Source: Anaerolineae bacterium
GTDB taxonomy: Bacteria; Chloroflexota; Anaerolineae; Promineifilales; Promineifilaceae
Reading direction: 5' to 3'
Length of the DNA stretch: 64,000 nt
Assembly (NCBI GenBank): GCA_023954475.1
Contig: JAMLHW010000001.1
Span: 434,001-498,000 of the forward strand
The notes below the pieces were generated by a model. It was not told the origin of the DNA and ran no database searches. It worked only from the letters and a program-made list of their open reading frames with translations. The position numbers and the translations under genes were made by a program. This document shows positions 5,619-53,476 of the stretch, piece by piece; the first letter of the stretch is position 1; each line of letters opens with the position of its first letter.

Positions 5619-7757
5619 TTATTTGTTTTTGGGCCAGGCCAGGCTGATACGATTGCGTTGTGTGTCAACTGACTTGATGACAACGTCGATGATGTCACCT
5701 ACATTCAGTGTCACTTTTCGTGGAATCTGGCTGCGGTGTAACAGCCCGTCGCGTTTGACACCGATGTCGATAAACACGCCGAAATCGACTATATTGCGTA
5801 CAGTACCTTGCACTTGCAATCCGGCGCTGAGTTGCTCTATATCGACAACGTCATCGCGCAGTAATGGCGTGGGCAAGTCTTCACGTGGATCGCGGCCCGG
5901 ACGCACGAGTTGTTCGCAAATATCGGTTAGCGTAGGTTCACCGGTTTCCAATTCGGCCGATAATTGTTTCAATGACGTTTTTTGCAATAGTGTGTCGATT
6001 CGTGCCTGTTTTTCGGCCGAATCCATCCCTACCAAATCAATCGCTGCCATTTCGAGCAGCGCCTGCGCTGTCTTATAGCTCTCCGGATGAATGGCACTCG
6101 CATCGAGTGGATTGTCGCCGTCGCGTATACGCAAAAAGCCGGCAGCCTGTTCAAACGTTTTTGGTCCGAGACCGGACACCTTGTGCAAACGACTGCGGTT
6201 GGCAAATGGGCCTTCTTCATCGCGATATGCGACGATTTTCTGCGACAAACTGGGGCCGATTCCAGCCACATACTGCAACAAAGCCGGCGATGCGGTGTTG
6301 ACGTCGACCCCGACGCGATTGACAACCAGCGTGACGACATCGGCCAGCGCTTCACTGAGCCGCATTTGATTGACATCGTGTTGATACAGACCAACGCCGA
6401 TGGATTGCGGATCGATTTTGACCAGTTCAGCCAACGGATCGAGTACGCGTCGGGCAATTGATACCGCCCCACGTAATGTCACATCCAGCTCAGGCAGTTC
6501 ACTGCGTGCGAGATCGCTGGCGCTGTAGACGCTGGCACCGGCTTCGTTGACCGTCAGATAATGCAGCGTGTCAAATGTGCGCGTCAATTCGGCGACCAAT
6601 TGCTCTGTTTCACGCGAAGCGGTGCCATTGCCTATGGCGATAACCGTAACGTCGTGACGGCGGACGAGCAGGGCGAGGCGTTTGAGCGCATCGTCTCTGT
6701 TCTTCTGCGGCTGATGGGGGTAAATGGTCGCTGTGTCGAGTAGCTTGCCGGTAGGATCGACGACGGCGACTTTGCAGCCGGTGCGGAATCCGGGATCAAT
6801 GCCAAGGACGACATGGCCGATGAGGGGTGGTTGGCTCAACAGGCCTTGCAGATTTTGGGCGAAGATGGCGATGGCGTGATTTTCGGCCGAATCAGTGAGT
6901 TCGCGGCGGACAGCACGCTCAATCGCTGGTTGCAAGAGTCGTTTACGAGCATCTTCGGTCGCTTTACGCAACTCATCTACCAGCGGTGAAAGGCGGTTTG
7001 GTCGTGCTGCAATGCGTAAGGCCAACAGCCAATCGTGTTCGCTGATTGATACAGAAACGGAAAGGATGCCTTCGTTTTCGCCGCGATTGATCGCCAATGT
7101 CTGATGGGGTCGGATGCTGCTAACCGGCTGCTCAAAGTCGTAATACAGTTTGTAGACAGCCTTGGGATCATCGCTCCCTTCCCTGCGGGTACAGGTCAAC
7201 ACACCTGATTGCATGGCGTGACGCCTTAAAGATTGGCGCGTTAGTGTATTGTCGGCAATCATTTGGGCTACAATATCGCGCGCACCGCTGAAAACATGCG
7301 CCGCTGTCGGGGCTTGTGGATTCAGATAATCAAAGCTCAGTTCGGCTGCCGTCGCATCGGTGACGGGTTGCTCCAGGATCAAGTCGGCAAATGGCTGCAA
7401 ACCAGCCTCGCGGGCAACATCGGCACGGGTTTGACGCCTGCGTTTGAACGGCGCGTAGATTTCCTCGAGATCGGTGAGGGTTTCGGCCGAATCGACTTGT
7501 GATTGAAGTTGTGGCGTTAACACTTCCTGTTCGGCTAAGGCGTTCAAGACAGTCTGGCGGCGCTCAGCCAGCGCACGCTCGTGCTTTAACCTCGCTGCCA
7601 GCAGTTGTACCTGTTCGTCGTCCAGTCCCCCCGTCACTTCTTTGCGGTAGCGGGCAATGAACGGCACAGTATTGCCTTCGTCGAGCAGCGCGACGGTTGC
7701 TGTCACCTGCGATTTTTTGAGCCTCAAAGCTGATGCAATTCTGGTAATTTCGTCCAT
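5619..7757 (-). CDS. tex: Transcription accessory protein Tex, S1 RNA-binding
   Basis: A 712-residue Tex-family nucleic-acid-binding protein linked to transcription and RNA metabolism. Domains in order: helical N-terminal Tex region (TVPFIARYRKEVTGGLDDEQ near residue 40), the YqgF/RNase H-like domain starting HVVLGIDPGFRTGCKVAVVDPTG, a helix-hairpin-helix pair (VNTASPALLQYVAGIGPSLS and HKVSGLGPKTFEQAAGFLRI), and a C-terminal S1 domain (VQGTVRNIVDFGVFIDIGVKRDGLLH). I chose the ATG at 7757 because the protein then begins MDEITRIASAL as in the family. An upstream GTG at 7793 would add 12 residues not typical of Tex and starts in the palindrome at 7797. Neither start has a strong ribosome site. 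Confidence 0.94.
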   Translation of the reverse strand: MDEITRIASALRLKKSQVTATVALLDEGNTVPFIARYRKEVTGGLDDEQVQLLAARLKHERALAERRQTVLNALAEQEVLTPQLQSQVDSAETLTDLEEIYAPFKRRRQTRADVAREAGLQPFADLILEQPVTDATAAELSFDYLNPQAPTAAHVFSGARDIVAQMIADNTLTRQSLRRHAMQSGVLTCTRREGSDDPKAVYKLYYDFEQPVSSIRPHQTLAINRGENEGILSVSVSISEHDWLLALRIAARPNRLSPLVDELRKATEDARKRLLQPAIERAVRRELTDSAENHAIAIFAQNLQGLLSQPPLIGHVVLGIDPGFRTGCKVAVVDPTGKLLDTATIYPHQPQKNRDDALKRLALLVRRHDVTVIAIGNGTASRETEQLVAELTRTFDTLHYLTVNEAGASVYSASDLARSELPELDVTLRGAVSIARRVLDPLAELVKIDPQSIGVGLYQHDVNQMRLSEALADVVTLVVNRVGVDVNTASPALLQYVAGIGPSLSQKIVAYRDEEGPFANRSRLHKVSGLGPKTFEQAAGFLRIRDGDNPLDASAIHPESYKTAQALLEMAAIDLVGMDSAEKQARIDTLLQKTSLKQLSAELETGEPTLTDICEQLVRPGRDPREDLPTPLLRDDVVDIEQLSAGLQVQGTVRNIVDFGVFIDIGVKRDGLLHRSQIPRKVTLNVGDIIDVVIKSVDTQRNRISLAWPKNK

Positions 7758-30116: not shown

Positions 30117-30605
30117 ATGTTCAAACGCAATCAAAAATCCCCGCCACCGATCACAATCGACACGGACAAAGTGTACATCGTGAAGATGGAAACTGAAAAA
30201 GGGCCGATAGAGCTGGAGCTTTATCCCCAGTACGCGCCCGTTACTGTCAATAACTTCGTTACGCTGGCTCAGGATGGCTATTACGACGGTATCGTTTTTC
30301 ACCGCGTCATCGCCAACTTCATGATTCAGGGCGGCGATCCGACCGGAACCGGGCGCGGCGGTCCGGGCTACAATTTTCAGGACGAGTTTGACGGCAACCC
30401 GCTGCGGCACGAAGCCAAAGTCATTTCGATGGCAAACGCAGGCCCGAATACCAATGGCAGTCAATTCTTCATCACCCATTCGCCGCAGCCCCATCTCGAC
30501 GGGATGCATACAGTGTTCGGCAAAGTAACGAGCGGCGCTGAGGTTGTTGATGCTATCCGCCAGGGTGATGCAATGACGAAGGTGACGGCAGAAGCGAAGC
30601 AATAG
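30117..30605 (+). CDS. Cyclophilin-type peptidyl-prolyl isomerase
   Basis: A 162-residue cyclophilin that catalyses cis-trans isomerisation of prolyl bonds. The active-site blocks are [30 protein letters not shown] (with the FHR arginine), [32 protein letters not shown], both near full consensus. There is no signal peptide, so it is cytosolic. The ribosome site AAGGAG and the promoter at 30080 fix the start. Length is typical for small bacterial PpiB-like enzymes. Confidence 0.95.
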
Positions 30606-30640
30606 CTGCCAGCTTTCAGCCGTCAGTTATCAGCTTTTTT
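30604..30640. repeat. Dispersed repeat patch after the cyclophilin gene
   Basis: AGCTGCCAGCTTTCAGCCGTCAGTTATCAGC-like units directly follow the stop codon and end in TTTTTT. The same CAGCTATCAGC-type unit is found inside recD2 at 52037-52073. The run of T may add terminator activity. Confidence 0.5.
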
Positions 30641-30725: not shown

Positions 30726-31829
30726 TCATGCCAACAAAATCACACCACGGGCCAGTGTTCCCGCGAGCATGTCGGTGTAGGCGTCGTTGATCTGATCGAG
30801 TGTGTAGGTGCGCGTGATCAGGCGGTCGAGGTCGAGCTTGCCCTCTCGATACCATTGGGCATAGCGTGGAAAGTCGCGTGAGGTATCGGCCGAACCGTAG
30901 TACGAGCCGACGATGGTTTTTTCCTGACGGGCGATGATAGCGCTGGGGAAGTTGGTAGCGGTGCCCATTGGCGACAGGCCGACGAGCACGAGTGTGCCGC
31001 CCGGGCGCACAGCCGCCAGACATTGTTCCTGCACACTGGGAATGCCAATCGCTTCGTAGACGATATCCGCACCGCGACCTGCTGTGAGAGCCTGAATGCG
31101 GGCGATCACGTCTTCATCAGCCGTAATCGTGTCGGTTGCGCCGAAAGACCGGGCCATTGCGCTTTTTTCGGCCGAAACATCCACCGCAATGATCCGCTCT
31201 GCACCTGCCAACTTTGCCCCCATAATCGTACTCAGCCCCACACCGCCGGCACCAAAAACCGCGACCGTGTCACCCGGCTGCACCGGCGTTGTGTTCAGCG
31301 CCGCACCAACACCGGTCGTAACCGCACATCCGAGTACAGCCGTCACCGCCGCCGGAACCTCGTGCGGAATCGGCACACAACTTTCCTGCGGCACAACGGC
31401 ATAGTCGGCAAAGCACGCCAGACCGCTGAAATGGTAGACGGGTTGGCCGTTGCGCGAAAGGCGCGTCGTGCCGTCCATCATTGTGCCGGCCCAAATCGGC
31501 GCGACATAGGTGGCGCACAGGCTGGGGCGACCATGCCGGCAATAGAAACAGTCGCCGCAGTTGGGTGCCCAGTTGAGAGCAACCTGCTCGCCGATTTGGA
31601 CTCGCGTTACACCATCGCCGACTGCTTGCACGATGCCCGCACCTTCGTGTCCAGCAACGACAGGCAGCGGATGGTCGGTTGCGCCGGTGACAAGGTGCCA
31701 ATCGCTGTGGCAAACGCCGGCGGCGCTGATTTTGACGAGTACTTCGCCGTGTTGCGGCGGCGCGAGATCGATTGTTTCAATCTGGAATGGGGTATTGGGA
31801 GTGTACAGAACGGCGGCGCGTGTTTTCAT
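30726..31829 (-). CDS. Zinc-dependent alcohol dehydrogenase (MDR, class III-like)
   Basis: A 367-residue medium-chain dehydrogenase. The catalytic zinc ligands are in GVCHSDWH and GHEGAGIV, with the third cysteine in VLGCAVTTG. The structural zinc lobe has CGDCFYCRHGRPSLC with four cysteines. The NAD(P) Rossmann motif is VAVFGAGGVGLS. The sequence resembles the AdhC and S-hydroxymethyl-thiol dehydrogenase branch, so oxidation of primary alcohols or formaldehyde adducts is plausible, but the substrate is unknown. Ribosome site AGGA stands 8 bases before ATG 31829, and an extended -10 is at 31880-31888. Confidence 0.9.
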   Translation of the reverse strand: MKTRAAVLYTPNTPFQIETIDLAPPQHGEVLVKISAAGVCHSDWHLVTGATDHPLPVVAGHEGAGIVQAVGDGVTRVQIGEQVALNWAPNCGDCFYCRHGRPSLCATYVAPIWAGTMMDGTTRLSRNGQPVYHFSGLACFADYAVVPQESCVPIPHEVPAAVTAVLGCAVTTGVGAALNTTPVQPGDTVAVFGAGGVGLSTIMGAKLAGAERIIAVDVSAEKSAMARSFGATDTITADEDVIARIQALTAGRGADIVYEAIGIPSVQEQCLAAVRPGGTLVLVGLSPMGTATNFPSAIIARQEKTIVGSYYGSADTSRDFPRYAQWYREGKLDLDRLITRTYTLDQINDAYTDMLAGTLARGVILLA

Positions 31830-45796: not shown

Positions 45797-45850
45797 TGCA
45801 AGTGTTGACTTGCATTATAGATCGAAATGCAATGCAAGTCAACACTTGCA
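45797..45850. promoter_or_regulatory. Paired TetR operators in a perfect 20-bp inverted repeat
   Basis: The 20 bases at 45797-45816 recur exactly inverted at 45831-45850, with 14 bases between. Each arm contains its own 18-bp palindrome: TGCAAGT-GTTG-ACTTGCA at 45797-45814, and its complement at 45833-45850. Operator centres are 36 bases apart, and both overlap the divergent promoters. This is the expected layout for a TetR dimer pair controlling itself and the reductase genes. Confidence 0.85.
45814..45842 (-). promoter_or_regulatory. Leftward promoter of the reductase-like genes
   Basis: Read leftward, TTGACT (45842-45837), a 17-base spacer and TATAAT (45819-45814). The -35 lies within one operator and the -10 touches the other, so repressor binding would block it. 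The leader to ATG 45680 is about 127 bases. Confidence 0.8.
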
Positions 45851-51181: not shown

Positions 51182-53476
51182 GTGAGCAAAGACCAGATTA
51201 GCGGCTCGGTAGAGCGCATCACTTATTACAACGAAGAAAACGGCTACACTGTTTTGCGGCTGAATCCTGATGCCAAAGGGATGTTGCCGTTCAAATACGC
51301 CAGTGGGCGCGACGCGTTGATCACGGTGGTCGGCACTTTGCCTGAACTCAATCCCGGTGAGTGGCTCAAATTGACCGGTCAATGGGCGACGCACGCCAAA
51401 CACGGTCGCCAATTTCAGGCTGAATTGTGCGAACAGTCCCAACCGGCGACGGTGGAAGGGATCAAACGGTATCTCGGTTCGGGTTTGGTGCGCGGCGTGG
51501 GTAAGGTGATGGCAGAGCGCATTGTCGATCGCTTTGGTCTGGAGACGCTAGACGTGATCGACAATGAGCCGGAACGATTGCAAACTGTGTTGGGCATCGG
51601 CCGAAAACGGGCCGCACTCATCGAAAAAGCATGGGATGAGCAGCGTGCCATCAAAGATGTCATGCTTTTCCTGCAATCGCACAACGTTTCCACAAACCTC
51701 GCTGTCAAAATTTACAAACAATACGGCGATGAAGCACTGGCTGTCGTGCAAAATACACCGTACAAATTGGTGCAGGATGTGCGCGGTATCGGCTTCAAAA
51801 CGGCCGATAAAATCGCGCGGGACATTGGGCTGGCACACGACGATCCGGCTCGCATCGAAGCGGGCATCGCTTACACCCTCAATCGCATGGCGCAAGACGG
51901 CCACGTCTATGTGCCGCAGGAACTATTGGAGCCGGAAGCGTCGGAAATCCTCGGCGTGCAGGAAGAACAGATCACGTATGTCATCGACCGGTTGGAAGAC
52001 GACAATCTGATCAAGCGGGAAACATTGCAGTATGAAGCTGTGAGTCAACAGCCGTCAGCTATTAGCTATCAGCAGGAACATTCCGAAATCCGAAATCCCA
52101 CATCCGAAATCAAAGAGGAGCGTGCCGTTTACCTGACGCCGTTTTACTATTCTGAGGTCGGAGTGACTAACCGCATTCGCCGTTTGGTCGACCAGCCGAC
52201 GAGTCGAATCAAGTCGGGTTTCGGCAGCGATCGCGTGCTGACGCAGTTGCTGGCAGAGGTGGAGCGGAAATCGGGCATGGCTTTAGCGCCGCAGCAGAGA
52301 CAGGGGATTATTGCCGCTGTCAGCAACAAAGTGGCGATTTTGACTGGTGGTCCCGGCACAGGCAAGACGACGACACTGCGCACGCTGCTCGATTTGCTCG
52401 ACCGTACCGGTCGGCAAGTGGCGCTGGCATCGCCGACGGGACGCGCCGCCAAGCGGCTTGCGGAAGCGACGGATCGTCCTGCGAAGACGATTCATCGTTT
52501 ACTGGAATTTCAGCCGGGGGTTGGTTTCGGCCGAAACGAGGAAAATCCGATTCAAGCCGACATGATCATCATTGATGAAGCGTCTATGCTCGATCTCGTG
52601 TTGGCGAACAACCTGCTCAAAGCTGTGCCGCTCAACAGCCACCTGTTGCTCGTCGGCGATATCGATCAATTGCCGTCGGTCGGTGCCGGTGACGTGCTCG
52701 GCGACTTGATCGATTCCGGTGTCCCGGCGGTTGTGCGTTTGGAAACGATTTTCCGCCAATCGGCCGATTCCCTGATCATTCAGAACGCCCATCGCATCAA
52801 TCATGGCCAGACGCCGATCACCGACCCCAACGCGCGCGATTTCTTCCTTTTTGTCAAGAATGATCTCGATACACTGCCCGATTTGCTCGTGGAAGTAGTG
52901 CAACAGCGCGTTCCGCACAAATTTGGTCTCGATCCGTTTGACGATATTCAGGTGCTGGCGCCCATGTATCACGGGCAGGCCGGTGTGCTGAATCTCAACA
53001 CGCGTTTGCAATTGGCTTTGAATCCGCCCGGCAGACGCAAGATGGAACGCCGACTCGGCGGTCGTGTCTTTCGCGTCGGTGACAAGGTGATGCAGACCGT
53101 CAATAATTATGACAAGCATGTGTACAATGGCGATATCGGCCGAATCACTGCCATCGATCCCGTGATGCAGACAATGACGCTCAACGTGGACGGCGCGCCG
53201 ATTGCCTACGACTTTCTCGAAGCCGATGAACTGGTTCACGCCTATGCGATCAGCGTTCACAAAGCGCAAGGAGCCGAATATCCATGCATTGTCATGCCGG
53301 TCGTCACCCAACATTACATGATGCTCCAGCGCAATTTGCTCTATACGGCGATCACCCGCGCCAGGAAACTCGTTATTTTGATTGGCACGCGCAAAGCCAT
53401 CGCCATCGCCGTGCGCAACAACAAGACGACCGAGCGGCACACCGCACTGGACTGGCGACTCACGCACAAAACGTGA
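51182..53476 (+). CDS. recD2: RecD2-type ATP-dependent DNA helicase
   Basis: A 764-residue SF1B 5'-3' helicase. The N-terminal OB-like region (ISGSVERITYYNEENGYTVLRL) is followed by tandem helix-hairpin-helix motifs (SGLVRGVGKVMAERIVDRFG, VLGIGRKRAALIEKAWDEQ), the helicase core with Walker A TGGPGTGKTTTLRTLL, DEAS in IIIDEASMLDLVLANNLLKAVP, and a C-terminal UvrD-like 2B part (DELVHAYAISVHKAQGAEYPCIVMPV ... LLYTAITRARKLVILIG). It starts with GTG. Residues near 285-312 (about 52037-52115) are translated repeat DNA placed just before YLTPFYYSEVGVTNRIRRL. The frame is intact. It is not part of a RecBCD complex here. Confidence 0.94.
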   Translation: MSKDQISGSVERITYYNEENGYTVLRLNPDAKGMLPFKYASGRDALITVVGTLPELNPGEWLKLTGQWATHAKHGRQFQAELCEQSQPATVEGIKRYLGSGLVRGVGKVMAERIVDRFGLETLDVIDNEPERLQTVLGIGRKRAALIEKAWDEQRAIKDVMLFLQSHNVSTNLAVKIYKQYGDEALAVVQNTPYKLVQDVRGIGFKTADKIARDIGLAHDDPARIEAGIAYTLNRMAQDGHVYVPQELLEPEASEILGVQEEQITYVIDRLEDDNLIKRETLQYEAVSQQPSAISYQQEHSEIRNPTSEIKEERAVYLTPFYYSEVGVTNRIRRLVDQPTSRIKSGFGSDRVLTQLLAEVERKSGMALAPQQRQGIIAAVSNKVAILTGGPGTGKTTTLRTLLDLLDRTGRQVALASPTGRAAKRLAEATDRPAKTIHRLLEFQPGVGFGRNEENPIQADMIIIDEASMLDLVLANNLLKAVPLNSHLLLVGDIDQLPSVGAGDVLGDLIDSGVPAVVRLETIFRQSADSLIIQNAHRINHGQTPITDPNARDFFLFVKNDLDTLPDLLVEVVQQRVPHKFGLDPFDDIQVLAPMYHGQAGVLNLNTRLQLALNPPGRRKMERRLGGRVFRVGDKVMQTVNNYDKHVYNGDIGRITAIDPVMQTMTLNVDGAPIAYDFLEADELVHAYAISVHKAQGAEYPCIVMPVVTQHYMMLQRNLLYTAITRARKLVILIGTRKAIAIAVRNNKTTERHTALDWRLTHKT
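52037..52115 (+). repeat. Two dispersed repeat types inserted in frame in recD2
   Basis: At 52037-52073 CAGCTATTAGCTATCAGC-type units translate as QQPSAISYQQ. At 52081-52115 CCGAAATCCGAAATC-type units translate as SEIRNPTSEIK. These peptides are familiar from spurious ORFs in intergenic repeats. Here they form an extra linker of about 26 residues between the HhH region and the helicase domain, keeping the frame. Confidence 0.75.

Follow-up and report, generated by a model that had tools for sequence, protein, structure and literature searches.

Tandem repeats with a unit length that three does not divide are expected to be purged from genes, yet here they recur in conserved enzymes. How such DNA comes to lie in frame within a gene is the question raised by a helicase gene in the 64,000-nucleotide stretch of an Anaerolineae genome analysed here (the window). 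The gene, recD2, occupies positions 51182–53476 on the forward strand, starts with GTG and encodes an SF1B helicase RecD2 of 764 amino acids. The TIGR01448 profile matches it over nearly its full length (residues 8–759 on profile positions 1–712 of 713; E-value 2.9e-264; 878.6 bits against a cut-off of 500), and the Pfam domains are OB_YrrC, HHH_RecD2, AAA_19/30, SH3_13 and UvrD_C_2. A structure predicted with AlphaFold2 from 39 sequences (mean pLDDT 83.7) has D. radiodurans RecD2 as its top solved matches (Z 38.9 for 3e1s, 37.9 for 3gp8, then 36.0); domains and structural match agree on an HhH region and an SF1B helicase core. In B. subtilis and D. radiodurans recD2 is dispensable. The preliminary description of the locus spoke of an essential-type helicase, a label without support: the word "essential" is absent from the available excerpt of the B. 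subtilis RecD2 paper (PMC12143592).

A repeat-derived linker (52037–52115, forward strand; residues approximately 286–312) connects the HhH region to the helicase core, where the preliminary description had placed it. The linker holds two heptamer patches on the forward strand, 8 bases apart and together spanning residues 290–310 or thereabouts: (CAGCTAT)n at 52049–52073, with a lag-7 score of 8.0 and encoding approximately QPSAISYQ, and (TCCGAAA)n at 52082–52111, with a score of 13.0 and encoding SEIRNPTSEI. TRF reports period-7 arrays at 52055–52073 and 52082–52111, the latter of 4.3 copies. These two patches are the only lag-7 arrays in the entire gene to score 6 or more. The reading frame is open right across both, which bears out the proposal that repeat DNA is carried in frame.

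Low-complexity linkers are common in proteins, and on that general ground a period of seven in such a loop might be put down to chance or codon bias. None of 1,000 codon-order shuffles and 3 of 1,000 synonymous-codon shuffles scored as high as 13, which contradicts this reading, as does the presence of identical units between genes and in unrelated proteins. We give it practically no credence: by TRF and by the shuffles, the linker holds a tandem 7-nt unit beyond chance expectation.

In the model, helices at residues 246–257 and 261–274 lead into a strand at 277–286, a segment with pLDDT below 50 at 288–305, and a second strand at 309–318. The insert is thus predicted to be the disordered turn of a beta hairpin that follows the HhH region, and the hairpin carrying it looks winged-helix-like in our reading of the model. 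A hairpin within the RNA of the insert was considered and rejected; the folding energy is that of shuffled sequence (z −0.56, 54 of 200 shuffles folding equally well) and the two patches are not complementary.

RecD2 was found in 31 of 40 relatives and in 46 of 52 genomes of the family; the named relatives that carry it are Chloroflexota MAGs (Anaerolineae, Ardenticatenaceae, Promineifilum). Had all homologs shared the linker, it would be an old part of the protein; since they differ in it, the alignment gave the opposite result. The loop measures 36 aa here. In the sister clade (L013 and L179; SH-aLRT 99) it is 25 and 22 aa long and free of arrays, and the tree places the gain of the arrays on the branch of this genome. 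Because the sister-clade loop already measures 22–25 aa, the net gain is 11–14 residues, and the earlier figure of about 26 added residues was an overstatement. The site is an old loop of variable length, so repeat DNA took the place of some of the residues already there.

The same loop attracts heptamers elsewhere in the family. In a set of 81 RecD2 sequences (the window copy and 80 named loci kept of 402 found) it contains 22 lag-7 arrays in 15 sequences. This amounts to 22 per 6,192 loop nt versus 12 per 174,918 nt elsewhere in the aligned genes (13 before removal of one N-run artefact; Fisher p 2e-24, the sequences not being independent); control lags of 4, 5, 8, 10, 11 and 13 gave 0–1 arrays in the loop. 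Many of the arrays outside the loop fall at a second linker (52190–52297, forward strand; the PTSRIKSG...LAPQ region), which is array-free here and a heptamer hotspot in relatives. The units at the first loop differ among homologs and include CACCCAA, AATCTCC, CCGTAGA, CAGTNNN and CACTCAG, among others. On a tree of 92 sequences, built without the two loops, arrays occupy site 1 in 19 sequences, site 2 in 13 and both in 10, with at least seven state changes for each site. Across these 92 rows the loop ranges from 5 to 62 aa, length and sequence varying freely. The congeners L169 and L170 differ at site 1 by exactly 7 residues, NPLSVNR, the equivalent of three heptamers. The genomes compared, which are drafts and mostly MAGs, yielded no occupied site with an empty counterpart identical in all other respects, the nearest relatives belonging to other genera and being up to 78% identical; for this reason the RecD2 data fit both insertion and gradual growth in situ.

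The units of both patches are also present elsewhere in the genome. Allowing at most one mismatch, there are 18 clusters of TCCGAAATCCGAAATCC (the TCCGAAA type) and 5 of CAGCTATCAGCTATCAG (the CAGCTAT type), and reversed-pattern controls gave none in this genome; both types are dispersed, as first described. Classified by hexamer-based gene calls made for this analysis, the 18 strict TCCGAAA clusters comprise 9 coding, 8 intergenic and 1 edge case, and the CAGCTAT clusters 2 coding and 3 intergenic. The further claim that the repeats are usually intergenic holds per base and fails by count. One intergenic CAGCTAT-type patch lies in the window at 30610–30638 (forward strand), between the convergent genes 30117–30605 (forward) and 30726–31829 (reverse). 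Mostly intergenic inverted pairs of TTTCGGA/TCCGAAA were also seen at L152:11197–11269, L163:10556–10615, L165:10065–10135 and L166:10036–10092, where they fill short gaps between codirectional genes and may form hairpins.

Arrays of any unit were sought in the intergenic space of 738 kb of contig 1 and of six stretches chosen for holding TCCGAAA or CAGCTAT. At a score of 9 or more there are 23 lag-7 arrays, compared to 0–2 in five order-2 Markov nulls; lag 14 comes next after lag 7, and lag 8 is mildly raised. The units include AGCTNNC, CCGAAAT, AAGGATG and CAGTGNN. In contig 1, at a score of 9.5, 9 arrays lie in 85,909 intergenic nt and 3 in 652,091 coding nt, with 3 at edges; in 400 kb of the relative G055, at a score of 10, the counts are 20 in 55,450 intergenic nt, 21 in 344,550 coding nt (two of them resembling ordinary low complexity) and 4 at edges. 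Both genomes therefore show the dispersal, and the greater density between genes, that characterise heptanucleotide simple sequence repeats (SSRs). A strict scan of contig 1 (score 12, mismatch −2) gave zero lag-7 arrays; the later counts use a milder mismatch penalty and depend on that choice. Period-8 arrays, too, exceed the null in several sets (the G055 stretches L274–L293 and the homologs of PurL and aconitase X); they may be a second class of repeat or reflect conserved patterns of codons.

The distribution of (AATCTCC)3 across the class is patchy: with at most one mismatch allowed, 74 of the 298 genomes contain it. In a set of 147 arrays from four genes and 29 genomes, arrays of one genome in different genes matched in 0.239 of 318 pairs at score 12. 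Permuting genomes gave a mean of 0.115 and a maximum of 0.218, none of 500 permutations reaching the observed value. Sharing was 0.195 within genera and 0.095 between them.

Two further repeats were noted in passing. One is the palindrome TCGGCCGA, often extended to TTCGGCCGAA, of which the window has 97 copies (for example at 7474–7496 and 52518–52540) where approximately 1.75 would be expected. The 738 kb of contig 1 contain 1,155 copies, most of them within genes; 400 kb of G055 contain only 5, yet the 5.2 kb of the sister locus L179 contain 9. The palindrome is similar to HIP1, the highly iterated palindrome of cyanobacteria. The other, at 45797–45850, is an inverted repeat with perfectly matching 20-nt arms around a 14-nt loop.

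RecD2 is one host among many. Arrays within coding sequence were also found in adenine deaminase, aconitase X, PurL, a P-type ATPase, a type ISP enzyme and a MoeA-like protein. Three of these were picked because this genome's copies hold arrays, and since genes so selected give no estimate of a genome-wide rate, the following counts describe these genes only. PurL has 94 lag-7 arrays in 28 rows (85 distinct; the self copy and three duplicate rows are counted in the 94), and almost all of them fall at six sites (query positions approximately 73–83, 598–611, 670–687, 984–1008, 1118–1121 and 1196–1201), with 2 arrays at the control lag of 5 and 23 at lag 8. Aconitase X has 20, all but one at 419–452, and 19 at lag 8; adenine deaminase has 13, of which 11 fall at 405–415. 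These three genes have been colonised repeatedly in the family, by different heptamers. The PurL locus L162:7887–11690 (homologs L184–L213) encodes a 1267-aa PurL/PurQ-type FGAM synthase whose homologs carry heptamer arrays at about six loops, several of the arrays forming strong hairpins; at L164:7684–7765 a fused aconitase X carries two different heptamer patches exactly between its two domains.

In adenine deaminase and aconitase X the patch falls between Pfam domains. These junctions are what one would expect if linkers were selected as flexible tethers, or as mRNA structure slowing ribosomes between domains, and in the excerpt available B. subtilis RecD2 strand switching is tied to the N-terminal domain (PMC12143592). 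Several results speak against a functional linker: in PurL, the P-type ATPase, the type ISP enzyme and the MoeA-like protein the patch can fall inside a Pfam span, the RecD2 loop varies freely in length and sequence, and its insert has no RNA fold. We regard such a function as very improbable. The linker residues are probably without a dedicated role, and the term "domesticated", which implies use, is not supported.

Neighbouring arrays are frequently related to one another. A survey of 347 distinct arrays, at the loci collected by then, yielded 77 distinct neighbouring pairs: 44 inverted (gaps of 2–32 nt), 2 direct and 31 of unrelated units. Among the inverted pairs, 41 begin with the G-rich array, 2 end with it, and in 1 the two are equal; among pairs of unrelated units the corresponding numbers are 22, 3 and 6. 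Convergent order, G-rich then C-rich, thus holds for 63 of 68 polarised pairs. Because an inverted pair reads identically on both strands, this polarity is a property of the element and not of transcription. Close relatives supply several pairs each, which makes the binomial values for polarity too small; the test behind them also includes the single direct pair that is polarised. The RecD2 insert breaks the rule, its patches being unrelated and the first not G-rich.

The excess of inverted pairs with short loops over direct ones (44 versus 2 of 77) would fit a dedicated mobile hairpin with heptamer arms, REP/REPIN-like and moved by a Y1/HuH transposase, or MITE-like, inserting into loops and spacers. 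Three PurL inverted pairs fold strongly (−40 to −62 kcal/mol, z approximately −9), and Y1_Tnp proteins occur in 48 of 52 family genomes (three matches in G000). As described in the consulted part of PMC3116915, REPINs, RAYT-mobilised REP doublets, are likewise short dispersed hairpins, but here a conserved REP sequence is not apparent in the pair listing; units vary by genome and no fixed consensus emerges. Moreover, the unfolded RecD2 insert with its non-complementary patches does not fit, nor does G022, which has 31 TCCGAAA matches at 92% completeness and no Y1_Tnp match. A mobile hairpin is therefore an unlikely source. No known mobilising enzyme is indicated: as universal causes, both a Y1 transposase and a reverse transcriptase were rejected, each being absent from some array-bearing genome.

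Polarity can also be read in terms of DNA ends. Heptamers rich in G might be added to 3' ends, or a G-rich nascent strand might fold back and prime synthesis, with the ends then joined into convergent pairs; among polarised pairs, the expected order is seen in 41 of the 43 that are inverted and in 22 of the 25 that combine unrelated units, and convergent GGGAATC pairs are known in Xanthomonas (PMC4692102, in the part available). Against this, the RecD2 pair is itself not G-rich first, pairs from related genomes are not independent, and fold-back at stalled G-rich strands could give the polarity without end joining. Reverse transcriptase would be unnecessary, and the RVT_1 profile has no match in this genome. 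It seems doubtful, then, that an unrecognised process adds G-rich heptamers to the 3' ends flanking a break or stalled fork and then joins the two ends, in a manner resembling fused telomeres. If true, such a process would keep making new linkers in RecD2, PurL and aconitase X, because some of its products would land in frame in loops.

Taking these data together, we consider it fairly likely that the RecD2 linker arose in this lineage, when two heptamer families from the genome's own pool expanded a surface loop that was already there. Heptamer units would arise and spread by polymerase slippage, together with template switching or ectopic copying. Slippage would account for the 7-nt period and its drift, template switching at repeats could yield inverted neighbours, and genome-specific units would need copying between sites or a common bias. 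Most insertions in genes would be lost, frame-breaking cases being purged; survivors would keep the frame, lack stops and occupy tolerant loops, which matches the observed pattern. The heptamer patches may well be mobile, but to say that the locus documents mobility exceeds the data, since local slippage would account for recurrence and genome-specific units as well as spreading would. Several observations count against an expansion from such a pool. Units are shared to a modest extent (24%), which is almost matched within a genus (19.5%), simple slippage leaves convergent inverted pairs unexplained, and lag 8 is likewise above the null. If slippage kept the frame, a higher-order pattern of 21 nt would be expected; it is seen in a few long arrays only (20 versus 18 of 40). 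A general imprint of frame selection, as 21-nt repeats, was rejected; it is confined to the longest coding arrays, and the intergenic control at 42 nt or more holds a single array.

Similar systems have been described. Rickettsia palindromic elements are longer palindromes with a conserved consensus; they too keep repeat DNA in the reading frame of coding genes, at positions where it is tolerated. The RecD2 insert shares this in-frame retention but is neither palindromic nor foldable, and the present elements are short, varied heptamer arrays. Close parallels are heptanucleotide SSRs, the STRR of Calothrix and Nostoc and GGGNATC of Xanthomonas and Nostoc (Rehm et al. 2015, PMC4692102). According to the available part of that study, these are likewise degenerate 7-nt units, few per array and dispersed, with 70 (Xcc) and 75 (Xac) convergent inverted pairs close together; they are 89–93% intergenic, one main unit being studied per species. 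Here, in contrast, there are many units per genome, sites in frame within conserved enzymes are frequent, and the same protein loops are reused by different units. The RecD2 patches also lack quadruplex G-tracts: neither CAGCTAT nor TCCGAAA contains GGG or CCC, and the runs of three or more G typical of GGGNATC units are missing. The mostly intergenic TAACTGA repeats of Beggiatoaceae (MacGregor 2015, PMC4679880) are heptamers too, and share the seven-residue peptide period (translated LSVISYQ); in the excerpt available, mobility is suspected, no mechanism is given, and repeats within ORFs lie mainly at protein ends, an RNA polymerase-like ORF excepted. The present arrays are instead interior, at loops that recur across a family. 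PurL sites resemble Nematomorpha mitochondrial palindromes in being inverted repeats within coding genes, but those, as far as the portion consulted goes, are perfect, reach 284 bp and have arms encoding conserved regions (PMC6649704), whereas here degenerate arrays occupy non-conserved loops.

Judging from the parts of PMC4679880 and PMC4692102 consulted, heptamer repeats, rare cases within ORFs and convergent pairs of one heptamer were thus already known. In the literature searched we found no report of heptamers lying regularly in frame at interior loops that recur in the core enzymes of a whole bacterial family, of a polarity common to unrelated heptamer units, or of in-frame heptamers in Chloroflexota enzymes, and the repeat-peptide strings had no match. 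Database peptides such as SEIRNPKSEI and NLQSPIS should not be taken for homology. The convergent polarity is a testable clue to the origin of seven-base repeats. Heptamers recur at the same loops with units that are specific to each genome, which makes the birth and turnover of protein linkers traceable site by site in this family.
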